NCBI RefSeq assembly: GCF_000177215.2 | Contig: NZ_CM001368.1 | Span: 1-64,000, forward strand | DNA from: Solidesulfovibrio carbinoliphilus subsp. oakridgensis | Lineage (GTDB): Bacteria > Desulfobacterota > Desulfovibrionia > Desulfovibrionales > Desulfovibrionaceae | DNA: 64,000 nt | Reading direction: 5' to 3' | Shown: one piece after another, positions 267-9,307 of the stretch | How positions within the stretch are numbered: position 1 is the stretch's first letter | Layout: each line of letters begins with the position of its first letter | Notes under the pieces: model-generated | The model's input: only the letters and a program-made list of their open reading frames with translations | Database searches by the model: none | What the model was told of the DNA's origin: nothing | Translations under genes and position numbers: made by a program

Positions 267-1628
267 ATGGAAACGATCTGGCCCCGTATCAAAAAGCTTC
301 TTGAACAGACCCTGAGTCCAGGGCTCTATAATCTTTGGATAAAACCCCTTACCGCCCGGGCCCGCGACGGCGTTTTGGAACTGGCCGCGCCCAATGCCTT
401 CGTGGCCTCCTGGGTGCGGGAACGGCTGGCCGATTCCGTGGTCGAGGCCGCGGCTGTGGTCATGGGGTCCCGGCCCCAACTGGTGGTGACCGAAGCCGCC
501 CGGACCGCCGATGCCCCGGCCGCCGCGCCGGCCGCCACCGCCCCGCGTCCGGCCAGGGCGCCCAGGTCCCTGACCCTGCCCATGGCCCCCAAGGCTCCAG
601 ATCTCGGCAACGACCGTTTCCGTTTCAGTTACGACGAATTTGTGGTCGGTCCGTCCAACGAGCTGGCCTATGTGGCCAGCCAGGGCATTTGTGACATGTC
701 GTTGTCGGCGGACCAGCTGTTCATCAGTTCCGCGCCCGGCCTCGGCAAGACCCACCTCATCCAGGCCATGGGCAAGCGCCTCTCCCACACCGGCGGCGAA
801 GACGGCCGCAACCTGCGGGTGGCCTATCTTTCGGCCGAGGAGTTCGCCAACCGGCTGGTCATCGCCTTGAAGACCCGGCAGGTCGAGAAGTTCAAGGCCG
901 CCTTCCGCGAGAACGTGGACGTGCTGCTTCTGGAGGACATCCATTTCTTCCGCGACAAGCCGCGCATCCAGGACGAACTCTTAAATACGCTCATTGCCCT
1001 TAATTCCCGGGGCTGCCGGCTGGTCTTCACCAGTTCGTTTCTGCCCCGCGACCTGGCCGGCCTCGACGCCCAGCTCCTGTCGCGCATCAGTTCCGGGTTT
1101 TTGACGGTTATCGACAAGCCGGACCTGGCCACCAGAAAGCGCATCCTCGAGCGCAAGGCCGCCGTCCACCAGGTCCTGCTGCCGGACGAGGTGTCCACGC
1201 TTCTGGCCGACCGGCTCCACGCCGACGTGCGCCAGCTCGAGAGCTGCCTGCAGAACCTGGCCTTGAAGGCCCGGCTTCTCAACTGCCGCATCTCCGTGGA
1301 TTTGGCCTGGGACGTCCTGCGCCACTACGACCTGGAGGCCCGGTCGCTGACCCTGGAAGACATCGTGGAATACGTCTGCGACGTCTACCGGCTTTCGGCC
1401 GACCAGCTCGTGTCCAAATCCCGCAAGCGCCAGTACGTCCTGGCCCGCAACACGGCTTTTCTACTGGCCCGCCAGCACACGGACATGTCCCTGGTCGACA
1501 TCGGCAACCGGTTCAACCGCCGCCATTCCACCGTGGTCAAGGGCATCACGTCCCTGGAGCGCCACCTGTCCCTGCGCACGCCCCTTGGCCGGGAACTGGA
1601 ACGGACCATCGAGAGCGTCCGCGCCTAG
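267..1628 (+). CDS. dnaA: Chromosomal replication initiator DnaA (divergent motifs)
   Basis: DnaA-type AAA+ initiator of 453 residues, the usual length. Domain I covers about 1-75, an Ala/Pro-rich linker 76-110, AAA+ about 113-330 and the DNA-binding domain IV about 360-453. Several landmark motifs are unusual. The P-loop reads SAPGLGKTH (155-163) where GxxGLGKTH is typical. Walker B is LLLEDI (220-225) rather than LLIDDI. The Arg-finger box reads LLSRISSGF, and the domain IV signature reads NRRHSTVVKG, with Arg in place of the usual Asp before His. No clear Shine-Dalgarno precedes the ATG. Convergent with the Lon-type gene; dnaN, gyrB and gyrA are not downstream. It may be the main initiator or a diverged paralogue. 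Confidence 0.9.
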   Translation: METIWPRIKKLLEQTLSPGLYNLWIKPLTARARDGVLELAAPNAFVASWVRERLADSVVEAAAVVMGSRPQLVVTEAARTADAPAAAPAATAPRPARAPRSLTLPMAPKAPDLGNDRFRFSYDEFVVGPSNELAYVASQGICDMSLSADQLFISSAPGLGKTHLIQAMGKRLSHTGGEDGRNLRVAYLSAEEFANRLVIALKTRQVEKFKAAFRENVDVLLLEDIHFFRDKPRIQDELLNTLIALNSRGCRLVFTSSFLPRDLAGLDAQLLSRISSGFLTVIDKPDLATRKRILERKAAVHQVLLPDEVSTLLADRLHADVRQLESCLQNLALKARLLNCRISVDLAWDVLRHYDLEARSLTLEDIVEYVCDVYRLSADQLVSKSRKRQYVLARNTAFLLARQHTDMSLVDIGNRFNRRHSTVVKGITSLERHLSLRTPLGRELERTIESVRA

Positions 1629-1800
1629 GCGGCCCGCCGATCCCGCAGCCGTGACACACGTTTTCCCGAGAGCCCCCTTTCCGGGCAGTCCCGCCCGGCA
1701 GTGCCGGCGACCGCTCCACCCGCGTTCGCCGTCCCCTGCCGCCGCGAGCGGACGCAAACGACACGACGCCACCAGCTAGGGGGAGGCCGCCATCAGGCCG

Positions 1801-1840
1801 GGCGGGCGTCGGACATTGTCCGACGCCCGCCTTTTTTTTT
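1801..1840. terminator. Rho-independent terminator between dnaA and the Lon-type gene
   Basis: A perfect 15-bp inverted repeat (1801-1815 / 1817-1831) is followed by nine T residues at 1832-1840. It lies between two convergent genes; the T-tract is on the dnaA side. Confidence 0.9.
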
Positions 1841-1893: not shown

Positions 1894-1931
1894 GGGTCCG
1901 GGGGGAATCATTCTCCCCGGCCGCCGGAGGC
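1894..1931 (+). repeat. Palindromic intergenic repeat, copy 1 (overlaps Lon 3' end)
   Basis: First of eight related elements. Each consists of GGGTCC, then a G-rich/C-rich palindrome, then the tail CGGCCGCCGGAGGC. A small CCCC-loop-GGGG stem precedes it (about 1882-1896). The tail runs into the 3' end of the minus-strand Lon-type gene and encodes its final residues ASGGRGE and the stop codon. This copy ends GGAGGCCT where the others end GGAGGCAT. Confidence 0.8.
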
Positions 1932-3974
1932 CTCTTCCTTTTCCTTCTCTCCTCGCAACACCACCCGGGCGGCTTCGGCGGCGTCGGCGGCCAGGACCAC
2001 GTCGAGGCCTTCGAGGACATCGTCCGGCAGGGCCGCGACCACTTCGCCGTTGGCCCGGGGCAGGACAACCGTGGTGATGCCGGCCCGTTTGGCGGCCAGG
2101 CACTTTTCCCGGATGCCGGCCACGGGCAAAAGGCGGCCGGCCAGCGTCATCTCGCCGGTCGCGGCCGCGTCGCAGCGGGCCGGGCGGCCGGTCAAAAGCG
2201 AGAGCAGGGCGCAGAAGATGGTGACCCCGGCCGAGGGGCCGTCCTTGGTGACGGCCCCGGCCGGAAAGTGGATGTGCAGGTCGGTCTTTTCGAAAAAGCC
2301 GGGTTCCACACCCAACGCGGCGGCCTGGCTGCGGATGTGGCTGAGCGCCGCCTGGGCCGATTCTCGCAGCACCTCGCCCAAAGAGCCCGTCAGAAGCAGC
2401 TGGCCCGTGCCCGGCATCCGGGCGGTCTCGACAAAGACGATCTCGCCGCCGTGCTCGCCGACCACCAGGCCCGTGACCACGCCGACCCGGTCCCCGGCCT
2501 CGGCCGCCTCGCGGGTGAAGCGGCGGGGGCCAAGGAGCGTCGGGATGTCCGGGGCGTCGATGCGGGCCGGGGCTTGCCCCGCGTTCTCGAAGGTCAGTTT
2601 GGCCAGCCGGCGGCAGGCCGTGCCGATCTCCCGGGACAGGCCCCGCAGCCCGGATTCCCGGGTGTAGTCGTCGATGATGCGGGAAAGGGCCTGGTCGGTG
2701 AAGGAGACCGAGGCCTGGGACAGGCCGTTTTCGCGCAAATGGCGGGGCAGGAGGAAATCTTTGGCGATGCCGCATTTTTCCCGGTCCGTGTAGCCCGGGA
2801 AGGCCAGGTTCTCCAGACGGTCGAGGAGGGGGCCCGGCAGGCGCGAGACGTCGTTGGCCGTGGCGAGGAACATGATGCGCGACAGGTCGAAGGGGATTTC
2901 GAGAAAATTGTCGGAAAACCGGGCGTTCTGCTCGGGATCGAGGATTTCCAGCAGGGCCGAGGCGGCGTCGCCGCGAAAATCGCTGCCGATCTTGTCGATT
3001 TCGTCCAGCATGAAGACCGGGTTGGCCACGCCCACGCGCGTGAGTTCCTTTAAGATGCGACCCGGCATGGCCCCGACGTAGGTACGTCGGTGGCCGCGAA
3101 GCTCGGCCTCGTCGCGAAGGCCGGCCAGGGAGACGCGCACGAACTCCCGGCCGAGCGACTCGGCCACGGCCTGGCCGACGGAAGTCTTGCCCACGCCCGG
3201 CGGGCCGGAAAAGCACAGGACCGGCCCCCGGCCCGGGCTGGACGCGGTCCTGGCCTCCAGGACCGCGCGCACGGTCCGCTTGAGTTCGTCCAGATTGACG
3301 GGCTTGCCGAGGTAGTGGGCCGCCCCGGCCCGCAGGGCCTCCACGGCCGTGCCGACCGTGGCGAAGCCCGTGACCATGACCACCGCCGCGTCCGGGGCCA
3401 CCCGCCGCAGCCGCCGCAACAGCTCCATGCCGTCCAGGCGTTCCATCTTGAGATCTGTCACCACCACATCGGCCTCGAAGCCGCCGGTCAGGACGTCGAG
3501 CGCTTCGAGCCCGTCCCCGGCCACCCGCACCTCGTAGCCTTCCCGGCCAAGGACATGGGCCATGTTGGTCCGGGCGATCTCCTCGTCGTCGACCACGAGC
3601 AGCCGGGGCCGGGCCGCGCCGCGCAGGGCCCGGGCGGCCAAAAACTCCAGGATGCGCTCCTTGACCGGGGCCAGGCCGTGGTGGCGGGCGTCCAGCACGT
3701 CCCTGGCCCGGGTCAGGTCGAGGGTGTCCCGGGTGCAGGCGTTCCACGGCAGTTTCAGGATGCATTCCAGGTAATGGATGCCAACGGCATACTCGGCCAC
3801 GGACGGGTCGGTCTTCTCGAGCCTGGCCAGTTCGCGGCCGGCGGCGGCGGCGGCCTGGGCCGGCAGTCGGGCGGCGTCGAGGGAACGGCGCAGGGTGTCG
3901 AGGACGCCGGTGTCCTCGGTCGGTGCGTCCGGGTCGGCGGCCGTGGCCGGACGGGGTTTGCTGCGGAAAAACAT
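1908..3974 (-). CDS. Lon-type (S16) protease with embedded response-regulator receiver domain
   Basis: Protein of 688 residues. Residues about 60-118 match the Lon segment just before the ATPase (KLPWNACTRD, then HHGLAPVKERILEFLAARAL). A complete receiver domain follows at about 123-242, with the acidic pair D129/D130, phospho-acceptor D174 and K224. The AAA+ module resumes with the P-loop GPPGVGKTS (257-265) and Walker B FMLDEID (321-327). The C-terminal S16 domain has catalytic S581 (KDGPSAG) and K624 (GIREK). The large N-terminal LON substrate domain is absent. The receiver thus sits inside the normal Lon ATPase, between its first helices and the P-loop, suggesting phosphorylation-gated proteolysis. 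AAGGAG precedes the ATG. The C-terminal seven residues are encoded by an intergenic repeat. Substrates and the partner kinase are unknown. Confidence 0.9.
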   Translation of the reverse strand: MFFRSKPRPATAADPDAPTEDTGVLDTLRRSLDAARLPAQAAAAAGRELARLEKTDPSVAEYAVGIHYLECILKLPWNACTRDTLDLTRARDVLDARHHGLAPVKERILEFLAARALRGAARPRLLVVDDEEIARTNMAHVLGREGYEVRVAGDGLEALDVLTGGFEADVVVTDLKMERLDGMELLRRLRRVAPDAAVVMVTGFATVGTAVEALRAGAAHYLGKPVNLDELKRTVRAVLEARTASSPGRGPVLCFSGPPGVGKTSVGQAVAESLGREFVRVSLAGLRDEAELRGHRRTYVGAMPGRILKELTRVGVANPVFMLDEIDKIGSDFRGDAASALLEILDPEQNARFSDNFLEIPFDLSRIMFLATANDVSRLPGPLLDRLENLAFPGYTDREKCGIAKDFLLPRHLRENGLSQASVSFTDQALSRIIDDYTRESGLRGLSREIGTACRRLAKLTFENAGQAPARIDAPDIPTLLGPRRFTREAAEAGDRVGVVTGLVVGEHGGEIVFVETARMPGTGQLLLTGSLGEVLRESAQAALSHIRSQAAALGVEPGFFEKTDLHIHFPAGAVTKDGPSAGVTIFCALLSLLTGRPARCDAAATGEMTLAGRLLPVAGIREKCLAAKRAGITTVVLPRANGEVVAALPDDVLEGLDVVLAADAAEAARVVLRGEKEKEEASGGRGE

Positions 3975-4060: not shown

Positions 4061-4092
4061 GGGTGTTGCAGGATGTTACGAAAAATCGCCTT

Positions 4093-4109
4093 CGTTGCAA
4101 TCTGCAACG
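4093..4109. promoter_or_regulatory. Inverted repeat CGTTGC-N5-GCAACG (site 1)
   Basis: Perfect 6-5-6 inverted repeat (7-3-7 if extended by one base each side). The same motif recurs at 4172-4188, 79 bp away. A weaker copy may start near 4064. The pair suggests binding by a dimeric regulator that is not identified here. Confidence 0.5.
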
Positions 4110-4171: not shown

Positions 4172-4188
4172 CGTTGCATATCGCAACG
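4172..4188. promoter_or_regulatory. Inverted repeat CGTTGC-N5-GCAACG (site 2)
   Basis: Second perfect copy of the motif at 4093-4109. It lies about 60 bp upstream of the AT-rich -10-like region of the rightward Usp/TauE transcription unit, a position suitable for an activator. Confidence 0.5.
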
Positions 4189-4252: not shown

Positions 4253-4327
4253 ATTTCCTCAAGCGGCACGCATCTTGTTCTTTAAGGCACATCCGGCCGC
4301 CAAGGCCCGAACAGACGAGGGAGCCGC

Positions 4328-5131
4328 ATGCACGACGCCAGACCGACCACGAGCCCGACCGAGGCCGCCGCCAACCGTCCCCACCAGGTGTTGGTGGTGA
4401 TCCGGGGAGGCGGAGCCAGGCAGGCCCTTTCCGACTACGCCCTGGGCGTGGCCGAGCGGCTGGGGCTTTCGGTGCTGGCCGCCTATGTCGATACGCTGCC
4501 CCGGTTCGGGGACAGGCAGGCCCGGCGGGAACGGTTCGCCGCCGGCGTGGCCCATGACGCGGCCGCGTTCCGGGAAAAGGCCGGAGAGCGGGACATTGGG
4601 TTCGAGCACGTCACGGTCTCGGGCAAGGCGTCCGAGGCCGTGGTGGCCCTCACGCACGGGGGCCGGCGGATCGATTTCGTGGTGCTCGACCCGGCGATAC
4701 GGCTTGAAGAGGTGGCCAGGCGGTCGCCGGTCCCCGTGTTCGGCCTCGATGTGGCCGACGGGGACAGGGCGGGGCGCCGGGGCCGTTTTCCCTCGCAACA
4801 CCAAACCCCTGGGAGGTTGTCCATGTCCGAGAAGATGCGCAAGCGAAACGCGGTCCGGTCGGTCGTCTTCGGCGCGGGCGCCGTGGCCCTCTACGCCGCG
4901 GTGTTCACGCATTCGGAACTTTTCACCAACCTGTCGGCCAAGGGCGGCATGTACGCCGTGGTGCCGGTGATCACGGTCTTCCTCTTTTCCTACGTGCACG
5001 GCAGCTTCACCAGCGCCTTCTGGTCGGCGCTCGGCATCGAGGCCTCCAAGGGCGCCACGGCCAAGAAACAGCCGACCGCCCACACCGAGAAGCGCAAGGA
5101 CGGCCGGGCCGCCGCCCGCATCAACGCCTGA
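4328..5131 (+). CDS. UspA-like domain joined to a small membrane protein
   Basis: Open frame of 267 codons. Residues about 18-150 have a Usp-like alpha/beta pattern (HQVLVVIRG near the start, IDFVVLDP later) but lack the ATP-binding GxxG...GS motif. A low-complexity linker follows. From residue 166 (Met at 4823) there is a separate-looking protein of about 102 residues with two hydrophobic segments and a Lys/Arg-rich tail. A good ribosome-binding site (GGGAGG, then ATG) precedes this internal Met. Two readings fit: a true fusion, or two genes whose intervening stop has been lost, with translation also starting at 4823. It lies just upstream of the TauE/SafE gene and is probably cotranscribed. 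GAGGGAG precedes the first ATG. Specific function unknown. Confidence 0.75.
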   Translation: MHDARPTTSPTEAAANRPHQVLVVIRGGGARQALSDYALGVAERLGLSVLAAYVDTLPRFGDRQARRERFAAGVAHDAAAFREKAGERDIGFEHVTVSGKASEAVVALTHGGRRIDFVVLDPAIRLEEVARRSPVPVFGLDVADGDRAGRRGRFPSQHQTPGRLSMSEKMRKRNAVRSVVFGAGAVALYAAVFTHSELFTNLSAKGGMYAVVPVITVFLFSYVHGSFTSAFWSALGIEASKGATAKKQPTAHTEKRKDGRAAARINA

Positions 5132-5241: not shown

Positions 5242-6282
5242 ATGCACGGCGCGGGCGAAATGATCAGCTTCATCGATCTCAATCTCTATTCCATTGTTTT
5301 CCTGTTTCTGGTCGGCTTCATCGGCGGCCTGGTCAGCGGCTTCATCGGTTCGGGCGGTGCCTTTGTGCTCACCCCCGGCATGATGAGCCTTGGCGTGCCC
5401 GGCCCCGTGGCCGTGGCCAGCAACATGTGCCACAAGTTTCCCAAGGCCCTGGTCGGTTCCATCAAGCGCTACCGCTACGGCCAGGTGGACATCAAGCTCG
5501 GCGTCATCATGGGCCTTTTCGCGGAAATCGGCGTCCAGGCCGGCATCCACGTCCAGCAGATCATCCTGGAGAAATGGGGCGAGGCCGGCTCGAACCTCTA
5601 CGTCAGCCTGTCGTTCGTGTTCGTGCTCCTGACCGTCGGCAGCTTCGTCATGCGCGACGCCCTGCGCCTGGCCAAAAACGACGGCCAGGGCAAGCCCAAC
5701 AAGCTGGCCCAGCGGCTGCAGGCCATCGAACTGTGGCCCATGATGACCTTCAAGCGGGCCGGCGTGCGCATCTCGGTCTGGTTTCTCATCCCCGTCGCCC
5801 TGGCCACGGGCATGCTGGCCGCGACCATCGCGGTCGGCGGCTTCATCGGCGTGCCGGGCCTCATGTACATCATCGGCGTGACCAGCATCGTGGCCTCGGC
5901 CACCGAACTCGTCATCGCCTTTGTCATGGGCCTTGGCGGCACCCTCATCTGGGCCTACTACGGCATGGTCGACATCCGGCTGACGCTCATCATCCTCGGC
6001 GGCTCGCTTTTCGGCGTCCAGCTCGGCGCCATCGGCACCACCTATGTCAAGGAATACATGATCAAGATGGTCATGGCCATCATCATGCTGATCGTGGCCT
6101 TCAGCCGTTTCCTGGCCATGCCCAAGTACTTGAACAAGCTCGCCCTGACCGATTTCTCGGACACGGTGGTTAGCATGCTCAACCAGACGAGCTTCGGCGT
6201 GATGGTCGTGGCCCTGCTCGTTGGCGCCGGCATCATCCTGGCGGCCATGTTCAAGGCCCGCCGGCTCGAAAGCCGGGCCTAG
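5242..6282 (+). CDS. TauE/SafE-family membrane exporter (sulfite/organosulfonate type)
   Basis: Integral membrane protein of 346 residues with the two-repeat TauE/SafE layout. The N-terminal helix carries the GGLVSGFIGSGGA motif (about 29-41) and the second half repeats it around VGGFIGVPG. About eight hydrophobic segments are visible. The family exports sulfite, sulfoacetate or related anions; the substrate here is not determined. GGAGGAG lies 8-12 bp before the ATG. It follows the Usp/membrane gene by 110 bp and precedes a tandem UspA gene, an arrangement suggesting a stress-linked anion transport module. Confidence 0.88.
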   Translation: MHGAGEMISFIDLNLYSIVFLFLVGFIGGLVSGFIGSGGAFVLTPGMMSLGVPGPVAVASNMCHKFPKALVGSIKRYRYGQVDIKLGVIMGLFAEIGVQAGIHVQQIILEKWGEAGSNLYVSLSFVFVLLTVGSFVMRDALRLAKNDGQGKPNKLAQRLQAIELWPMMTFKRAGVRISVWFLIPVALATGMLAATIAVGGFIGVPGLMYIIGVTSIVASATELVIAFVMGLGGTLIWAYYGMVDIRLTLIILGGSLFGVQLGAIGTTYVKEYMIKMVMAIIMLIVAFSRFLAMPKYLNKLALTDFSDTVVSMLNQTSFGVMVVALLVGAGIILAAMFKARRLESRA

Positions 6283-6351: not shown

Positions 6352-6460
6352 GCACGTCCTGTTCCCTGGGCGCGGCACGGGCGGCGCATCCCGACACGGG
6401 GCGCCGCGTGGCACGAAAGAGACGCAGCGAAGGCAACCGCTCCTTTCCAAATCCGCCGCG

Positions 6461-6494
6461 CCGTCCCGGGGAGCGGCCACGCTCCCCGGGACGG
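6461..6494 (+). promoter_or_regulatory. Strong leader hairpin just upstream of the tandem Usp gene
   Basis: A perfect 14-bp stem (6461-6474 / 6481-6494) with a 6-nt loop ends six bases before the ribosome-binding site GGAGGGA of the Usp gene. There is no T-tract, so a translational or processing role is more likely than termination. Confidence 0.5.
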
Positions 6495-6509
6495 CCATCC
6501 GGAGGGACC

Positions 6510-7427
6510 ATGTACCTGCACCGTCCCAAGACCCTCGTCGTCGGCCTCGACGGTTCTCCGGCCTCCCGGGGGGCCTTTGCCCAGGCCATGATCCTGGCCG
6601 CCTCCCTGCGGGGACGCCTGGTGGCCGTGGCGGTCGTGCCCGGGCTCGGGGGCCTGGAGCGCATCGGCCGGGAGCGCGAGCGCCGGGAGCTGTTGCGGCC
6701 CTACGAAGAGGCCCTGGCCGAGGCCGGGGAGGCCGCGGCCGCCGCCTCGCTGCCGCTGAAAAAAGTGATCGAGACCGGCGAGGCCTTCGAGCGGCTGGTG
6801 GACGTGGCCGAAGCCGAGGAGGCGAGCCTGGTGGTCATCGGCGACGCGCGCCGGGCCTACATGGAGCGGGTGCTCCTCGGGCGCAACGTGGCCAAGGTCA
6901 TCGGCTACAGCCCGTGCGACGTGCTGGTGGTGCCGGAGGGCACGGCCCTCGATTTTTCCCGGGTGGTCACGGCCGTGGACGGCTCCCGGCAGAGCTTGGC
7001 CGCCGCCGGCCGGGCCCTGGGCCTGGCCGCCGCCTACGGCGGGACGCTCGCCGTGGTGTCGGTCCTGGACGTGCCCGTGGACCGCCATCTCATCTACGGC
7101 ATTTTCGAGGACATCAAGCGCCGGGCCTTGGTCGCCACCGGAGCCGTGGCCAAGGCGGCCAAGGCCCGGGGCGTGGCCGCCGACGTCCTCTTGCTCGAAG
7201 GCTCGCCCTACCGGGGCATCGCCTCCTTTGCCCGGGACGCCTGCGCCGGTTGCCTGGTGCTCGGGTCCTACGGCAAAAGCGGCCTGCGCCGGCTGCTCCT
7301 TGGCAGCGTGGCCGAGCGGGTCCTGGCCCTGGCCCCGTGCCCGGTGCTGGTGGTCAAGGCCGCCCCCGGCGACCCGGACGCCATTGCCGGCGACGCGGAC
7401 GAGGCGCTTGGAGCCGAGGCCGAATAA
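6510..7427 (+). CDS. Tandem-domain universal stress protein
   Basis: Cytoplasmic protein of 305 residues with two UspA domains, about 1-145 and 150-290. Each starts with a VxxxDGS strand (VVGLDGSPASRG near residue 12; VTAVDGSRQSLA in the second). The second ends with the ATP-binding pattern GSYGKSGLRRLLLGSVAERVL. The first has GDARRAYMERVLLGRNVAKVI, a weaker version. Start chosen at 6510 because GGAGGGA precedes this ATG and the N-terminus then matches the family; a longer in-frame extension reads through the leader hairpin. Family members bind nucleotides and respond to starvation or redox stress. Confidence 0.88.
   Translation: MYLHRPKTLVVGLDGSPASRGAFAQAMILAASLRGRLVAVAVVPGLGGLERIGRERERRELLRPYEEALAEAGEAAAAASLPLKKVIETGEAFERLVDVAEAEEASLVVIGDARRAYMERVLLGRNVAKVIGYSPCDVLVVPEGTALDFSRVVTAVDGSRQSLAAAGRALGLAAAYGGTLAVVSVLDVPVDRHLIYGIFEDIKRRALVATGAVAKAAKARGVAADVLLLEGSPYRGIASFARDACAGCLVLGSYGKSGLRRLLLGSVAERVLALAPCPVLVVKAAPGDPDAIAGDADEALGAEAE

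Positions 7428-7987: not shown

Positions 7988-9307
<1,320 letters not shown>

Follow-up and report, generated by a model that had tools for sequence, protein, structure and literature searches.

A receiver domain nested in a Lon ATPase

The window analysed here, the first 64,000 nucleotides of contig NZ_CM001368.1 of Solidesulfovibrio carbinoliphilus subsp. oakridgensis, carries close to dnaA a gene for a Lon-type protease whose ATPase is interrupted by a response-regulator receiver (REC). The locus raises the question of what a receiver does within the motor of a protease and where its signal would come from. The answer we consider probable is that one histidine kinase (HK) feeds two receivers, that of a sigma54-dependent response regulator (RR) and that of this protein, REC-Lon, which would be a Lon gated by phosphorylation; together they would form a branched two-component system. 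The gene is an open reading frame (ORF) on the minus strand, beginning with an ATG codon at 3974; the plus-strand frame across the same interval (1908-3974) contains one stop. Its parts are as follows (window coordinates).

1908..3974, minus strand: REC-Lon gene, 688 residues (ORF, Pfam and NCBIfam matches)
3615..3917, minus strand: N-terminal Lon helices and box II helix, residues 20-120, without PF02190 (first block of the 3m6a alignment, AlphaFold2 model)
3246..3608, minus strand: inserted receiver, residues 123-243 (PF00072, AlphaFold2 fold)
3453..3455, minus strand: codon of D174, the predicted phosphorylation site (pocket residues D129, D130, T202 and K224 conserved)
2583..3230, minus strand: AAA+ core and lid, residues 249-464 (PF00004 at 253-390, PF22667 at 415-464)
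3180..3206, minus strand: Walker A motif GPPGVGKTS, residues 257-265 (sequence, 33-row alignment)
1956..2561, minus strand: S16 protease domain, residues 472-673 (PF05362)
2232-2234 and 2103-2105, minus strand: codons of S581 and K624, the S16 protease site

A preliminary description of the gene had placed the receiver inside the Lon ATPase, and both domain searches and structural comparison bear this out. Pfam detects PF00072 at residues 126-235 (92.4 bits, above the cut-off), followed by PF00004, Lon_lid (PF22667) and PF05362 (236.4 bits) at the positions listed, while NCBIfam TIGR00763 (endopeptidase La) matches over two stretches with a score of 643.6 bits against a cut-off of 608.05. The alignment with Bacillus subtilis Lon (3m6a_A) also falls into two blocks, query 21-118 with chain 6-103 and query 249-680 with chain 107-537. 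Between them, query residues 119-248 stand opposite just three chain residues (104-106), so the receiver replaces the tight turn that leads from the box II helix to the strand before Walker A. Canonical LonA carries an N-domain. The loss of this domain from the window protein, already suspected, was upheld, the Lon substrate-binding family PF02190 not being among the 17 Pfam families matched at E <= 0.1. The protein is therefore LonA-derived rather than a canonical LonA, even though it passes the TIGR00763 cut-off.

In an AlphaFold2 model of the monomer (33-row alignment, mean pLDDT 80.7, pTM 0.67), the N-terminal part is made of helices at 20-34, 39-53, 60-74, 87-97 and 102-120, the last being the box II helix. 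Three residues connect this helix to a complete receiver at 124-243, with five strands and five helices in alternation, and a low-confidence segment (244-248) connects the receiver to strand beta1 of the AAA+ domain (252-256). In a Foldseek search with the model, the 50 best solved chains listed were all Lon proteases, with fold-alignment identities of 36-38% to the LonA entries 3m6a (B. subtilis), 4ypl, and 6u5z (E. coli). These LonA structures have the N-terminal helices, AAA+ core and lid, S16 domain and catalytic residues of the window protein but are without a receiver.

Recurrence, origin and conservation

When the genome of the window and 58 relatives were searched, 28 of the 59 gave a match that ran unbroken through the insert. 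REC-Lon was further detected across the class, where 115 of 348 genomes have it (E <= 1e-160), and in 48 of 395 genomes sampled from the phylum (E <= 1e-170), the three sets overlapping. A chance fusion or frame artefact was rejected on the strength of this recurrence. The class and phylum cut-offs were placed above the best plain-Lon scores seen among the 59 genomes, and because such cut-offs were applied the two counts are lower bounds. Plasmids were searched as well, and none matched at E <= 1e-150. At the insertion point, the gap between the two Lon segments measures 127-129 residues in all 52 REC-Lons aligned (128 in 45 of them), whereas in 53 plain Lons it is 2-3 residues (51 proteins) or 18-19 (two proteins). 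In a tree of the Lon parts without the insert, made by a quick method, one branch (SH-like approximate likelihood-ratio support 99) parts the 52 REC-Lons from the 53 plain Lons, and a single origin of REC-Lon is the simplest reading of these sequences. Two plain Lons are also encoded in the window genome.

The near-constant length of the insert suggests a structural role, and the N-domain has been lost; the receiver could thus serve assembly alone, in hexamer formation, in ring pairing or as a substitute for the N-domain, with phosphorylation of minor importance. We think this improbable. All five residues needed for phosphorylation (D129, D130, D174, T202 and K224) are present in 46 of 46 REC-Lon loci, the window included, and in 38 of 38 members of a second, overlapping set. 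A purely structural receiver would have no need of them, nor would it account for the co-occurrence of REC-Lon with a kinase (see below). The pocket is thus intact in every one of these REC-Lons, and their alignment also settles the residue numbers first given for D174, K224, S581 and K624, all of which are correct.

In the motor, K263 of Walker A, D324 of Walker B and R386 occur in 52 of 52 REC-Lons, and Y299, E325, N374 and R444 in 51, the exception being L114 (see below); K263, D324, E325, N374, R386 and R444 are all kept in the window protein and in 50 of the 51 others. Their Walker, sensor, arginine-finger and pore-loop roles are those established for Lon. Within Walker A, G257, P258, P259, G260, G262, K263, T264 and S265 are invariant in 33 rows. 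A handful of further positions set REC-Lons apart from plain Lons, for example (frequency 0.98 each) A284, where 53 of 53 plain Lons have Gly, and R622, where plain Lons have Lys (47 proteins) or Arg (5). A degenerate protease site was considered, a motif scan having at first missed DGPSAG in several homologues, and was rejected, since the alignment has both S581 and K624 in 52 of 52 REC-Lons; some of them read EGSSAG where others have DGPSAG. It is the 52-protein alignment that is informative here, the 46-locus set (which includes near-copies) having been chosen by a pattern that contains the serine motif. In genus g40 there are proteins that the query matched only in part. The four that were read (L156, L157, L165 and L168) have low-complexity inserts at three places, namely in the N-terminal linker, ahead of the protease domain and ahead of the region of the catalytic serine; the motifs are nonetheless present in all four.

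At the N-termini of REC-Lons (window 3930-3974 in the present gene), the N-domain is replaced by a short peptide of the type M-x-FF-(R/K/N/Q)-K that leads into a variable linker. The strict pattern, which like the palindrome described below was defined after these sequences had been inspected, occurs in 38 of 46 REC-Lons, against a mean of 0.26 and a maximum of 2 in 200 shuffles. Outside it fall the window protein and its five nearest kin, with MFFRSK-like starts, as well as L017 and L154.

A candidate kinase and the kinship of the nested receiver

A comparable system is known from Desulfovibrio vulgaris Hildenborough. There, DVU3303 is a response regulator with Lon, grouped with the HK DVU3304 and the sigma54 RR DVU3305, and passages of Rajeev 2011 (PMC3333781) propose a phosphorylation-activated, Lon-containing response regulator. 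The same passages mention DVU3305 orthologues in Thermodesulfovibrio, Thioalkalivibrio and Dechloromonas, mostly accompanied by the Lon-RR. From its architecture and neighbours, we infer that the window REC-Lon is orthologous to DVU3303. A kinase adjoining REC-Lon was looked for in the window and not found. A kinase-activator pair was found at 3.81 Mb of contig C1, comprising a HAMP-bearing and presumably membrane-located kinase (C1:3811245-3812696) and a sigma54 activator (C1:3812699-3814048). Thus Lon-RR, matching HK and sigma54 RR all occur in the window genome, although, unlike in the DVU3303 system, the pair is not adjacent to REC-Lon; in our view a side-by-side arrangement of the three genes is usual for such systems and not defining.

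Across the 59 genomes, the 28 with REC-Lon are exactly the 28 whose best kinase match has E <= 2.3e-78, while the 31 without it yield four weaker matches (3.9e-63 to 3.2e-72) and, in the other 27, none at E <= 1e-62; this is an association and not proof, given a post-hoc cut-off, overlapping bit scores and the relatedness of the genomes. In 21 of the 28 the kinase is no more than 5 kb from REC-Lon, and in G013 it is about 16 kb away; it is unlinked in the window genome (G000) and in G004, and is on a separate contig in G001, G010, G011 and G026. Within 3.5 kb of REC-Lon, 19 of the 46 loci have both an HK and a sigma54 RR, and nine have a single one of them; in the remaining 18 neither was called, and many of those loci end at a contig edge. 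An NtrC-type activator is present somewhere in the fetched stretch in 31. The gene calls around REC-Lon come from a greedy script based on homology, and the activators, recognised as NtrC-type neighbours by pattern and profile, are to be taken as candidate partners.

The nested receiver itself is akin to the receivers of these activators. With a profile made from Lon receivers, the partner activator's receiver scores 133.6 bits and is the top non-Lon receiver of the window genome, the next reaching 110.9, among 56 rows from fetched loci (genome-wide, 140 matches are present at E <= 1e-15). Of 152 receiver rows found, 134 were distinct and were retained. In a tree of receivers, all 46 from Lon fall on one branch (support 98/91), together with one stray long-branch row, and this branch nests in an 82-row group (88/96) with 32 neighbouring-activator receivers and that of the partner; the tree has few columns and an unsettled bootstrap, and its root is for drawing only.

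Receiver helix-1 residues help to set kinase specificity. In this helix, identity between Lon receivers and activator receivers of the same locus is 0.551 (32 pairs), compared with 0.21 between Lon receivers and the other receivers examined from the window genome (2530 comparisons). The resemblance is family-wide and is not a fine, locus-by-locus co-variation; it is consistent with a single kinase acting on Lon and activator receivers. Taken together, co-occurrence, receiver kinship and helix-1 residues support the partnership of this candidate kinase with REC-Lon.

The same kinship would also be expected if the nested receiver were a docking site that delivers the sigma54 activator, or the kinase, to the protease, as a built-in counterpart of RssB or CpdR exerting negative feedback, and the missing N-domain, which normally aids substrate selection, could be read in the same sense. 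Under such feedback, mutants of the protease and of the activator should differ in opposite directions. In D. vulgaris, passages of Trotter 2023 (PMC10102598) describe DVU3303-3305 as detrimental in chlorate with all pairwise cofitness values above 0.9, a same-direction result that is subject to a caveat of polarity. Docking alone also leaves unexplained why the insertion lies between nucleotide-binding segments with a length held within 3 residues in 52 of 52 proteins. We regard docking as unlikely, though less so than an assembly role, and favour gating of the motor through D174, because the receiver joins two nucleotide-holding segments, its pocket is fully kept and the length of the insert is near-constant.

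A second kinase-activator pair resembling the partners is present in the window genome at C1:3149057-3151800 (L221). Its kinase is 37% identical to the partner kinase and its activator 47% to the L151 activator; a receiver nearby (C1:3141053-3141502) is second-best to the Lon-receiver profile among the genome's own receivers examined.

Palindromes and divergent genes beside REC-Lon

Upstream of REC-Lon lie the following features.

4094..4108, no strand: palindrome GTTGC-N5-GCAAC, exact; putative enhancer to which the partner sigma54 activator may bind
4173..4187, no strand: second exact copy, starting 79 bp further
4065..4079, no strand: degenerate third copy, near match with 2 mismatches
4328..5131, plus strand: divergent gene, 267 residues, no Pfam (E <= 0.001) or NCBIfam (E <= 0.01) match
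5242..6282, plus strand: TauE/SafE-type anion permease (PF01925, 4e-34)
6408..7427, plus strand: tandem universal stress protein (PF00582, two stretches)

The exact palindrome occurs five times in the 4.22-Mb genome, twice between REC-Lon and the divergent gene, and the reversed pattern, used as a control, has zero sites in the same 4.22 Mb. In the 46 loci (746,259 bp, many of them from close kin), 43 of 45 exact palindromes fall inside a 1-kb zone at the REC-Lon start, and they come from 28 loci. We take the palindromes to be candidate enhancers for the sigma54 activator. A 2015 sigma54 study (PMC4641369) tabulates DVU3305 targets. For the DVU3305 motif itself, published in figures and supplements, the accompanying main text has no GCAAC, GTTGC or TGCAA string. 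As far as the passages available tell, targets of the DVU3303 system include UspA-type and membrane genes, a putative anion transporter among them, which resembles the gene set of the window. In many loci the flank of REC-Lon that faces away from the kinase and activator likewise holds, often in divergent orientation, small genes of unknown kind together with universal stress proteins and a transporter, for which TauE (in the window), CitMHS, NhaB and sulfate-permease proteins are examples. The gene at 4328..5131 heads the set of possibly co-regulated genes.

Elsewhere in the genome, the palindrome at C1:2183139, which has a degenerate neighbour, precedes an outer-membrane porin gene (DESULF_POR1). 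This gene had been considered as a dicarboxylate transporter matching a DVU3305 target, an identification that was dropped when it proved to be the porin. The remaining exact copies, at C1:1152161 and C1:2291533, have GC-rich spacers. When upstream regions were scanned for sigma54 promoters by our own criterion, 13 of the 46 loci had matches but the window did not, and the result was not used. By eye, a sigma54-like -24/-12 element (CGGCAC-N5-TTGTT, two mismatches), which that scan did not flag, can be made out at window 4264-4279, about 50 bp before the gene at 4328. Also by eye, the 4328-5131 protein resembles a fusion of two genes that are separate neighbours elsewhere, for example 8060-8602 and 7705-8064 in L141. 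On the other side, between dnaA (267-1628, plus strand) and the REC-Lon stop (1908), a hairpin of 15 pairs with a T-run (window 1800-1832) is a likely terminator between these convergent genes.

A proposed branched two-component system

In the scheme that we favour as probable, the HAMP kinase would phosphorylate both the receiver of the sigma54 activator and, at D174, the nested receiver of REC-Lon. Phosphorylation of D174 would alter the alpha4-beta5-alpha5 face of that receiver. Since the receiver is anchored in the box II helix (102-120) at one end and, through a short linker, in beta1 and Walker A at the other, this change would bring the AAA+ ring out of an idle state and into a working one, in which it would unfold and degrade a small set of regulatory substrates. 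In parallel, the activator would turn on anion-transport and universal-stress genes through GTTGC-N5-GCAAC, two sites of which lie beside the Lon gene. Phosphotransfer to D174, gating of the motor, its activating direction, binding of the palindromes by the activator and the nature of the substrates are all predicted steps. That phosphorylation would activate rather than inhibit is our judgement, made by analogy with the parent receiver family and with the proposal of 2011.

Several observations weigh against this scheme. The window genome has its kinase-activator pair about 290 kb from REC-Lon if C1 (4,102,695 bases) is circular and 3.8 Mb away otherwise, and in G004, a single-contig genome, the pair is unlinked as well. 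The kinase cut-off was chosen after the list had been inspected, and second-best kinase matches elsewhere reach 275.6 bits, against 262.9 for the weakest accepted best match. In a search with the whole of REC-Lon, the partner receiver came second among the genome's own receivers (87.5 versus 89.7 bits). Helix-1 identity across loci (0.525, 1440 pairs) is barely under the same-locus value, and in the beta5-alpha5 region the window receiver stands at 0.33 to its partner, against 0.53 to some other receivers of the genome. The exact palindrome is lacking in 18 of the 46 loci, and no exact or one-mismatch copy is present in 19.9 kb around the kinase-activator pair of the window genome. Polar effects might explain the cofitness of DVU3303-3305, should these genes belong to a single operon. 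Finally, L114 (genome G018), on a long branch of the Lon tree, has lost Y299, E325, N374 and R444 while retaining the receiver pocket, the Ser-Lys pair and the kinase match. Given these losses the motor of this lineage may be dead, or the receiver may be the only part still important; as a single divergent lineage among 52, it is of little bearing on the window protein.

A receiver kept despite the loss of motor residues would also fit a role as phosphate sink for the kinase or as its timing element, the protease part being an ordinary, constitutive Lon. The intact pocket agrees with such a role, as does a lysine two positions after the phosphorylated aspartate (D+2), where residues influence phosphoryl lifetime: its frequency is 0.97 in 34 non-redundant Lon receivers and 0.25 in 28 neighbouring-activator receivers. 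A sink, however, needs no nesting inside a motor, and it predicts a phenotype opposite to that of the activator, whereas the cofitness described in PMC10102598 is in the same direction, with the polarity caveat just given. The odds for a sink seem to us as poor as those for a purely structural receiver. Returning to the branched system, we would give roughly even chances to its fuller form, in which one sensor kinase governs transcription and proteolysis side by side through two receivers of common descent, one of them captured a single time into the turn between box II and Walker A of a Lon, so that an AAA+ protease is switched directly by aspartyl phosphorylation inside its nucleotide-binding module.

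Relation to other regulated proteases

The idea of a phosphorylation-controlled REC-Lon is not new, being preceded by the proposal for DVU3303. What is new here is the exact nesting, the apparent single origin, the kinship of the receiver, the co-occurrence with a kinase and the two palindromes beside the gene; the passages on DVU3303 in PMC3333781 and PMC10102598 are silent on the site of nesting, the length of the insert, its origin and the missing N-domain. No biochemical study of any REC-Lon was found in the literature within reach of the search, which left out most subscription papers. NtrC-family sigma54 regulators likewise combine a receiver with an AAA+ domain, and it is with receivers of this family that the nested one groups; NtrC proteins, however, carry the receiver ahead of the AAA+ domain and act on transcription, whereas REC-Lon holds it within the AAA+ module and presumably acts by proteolysis. 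Signal-controlled Lons are also represented by a separate activator protein, LarA (PMC10665427), and by a phosphorylation switch on Lon of Xanthomonas citri (PMC5784255); a receiver is unmentioned in the passages available on either.

Receiver phosphorylation is known to govern regulated proteolysis through RssB and CpdR. These receiver proteins are separate adaptors of ClpXP, whereas the receiver of REC-Lon is part of the protease chain; to our knowledge, phosphorylation-controlled proteolysis in bacteria of the RssB and CpdR kind works through such separate adaptors. Because TIGR00763 accepts REC-Lon as a plain endopeptidase La, annotation can hide the receiver. If the proposed scheme is true, REC-Lon would be a protease with a switch inside its motor and a candidate kinase at hand, on which the gating of an AAA+ ring by a receiver could be tested directly, and it could be used as a scaffold for an inducible protease.

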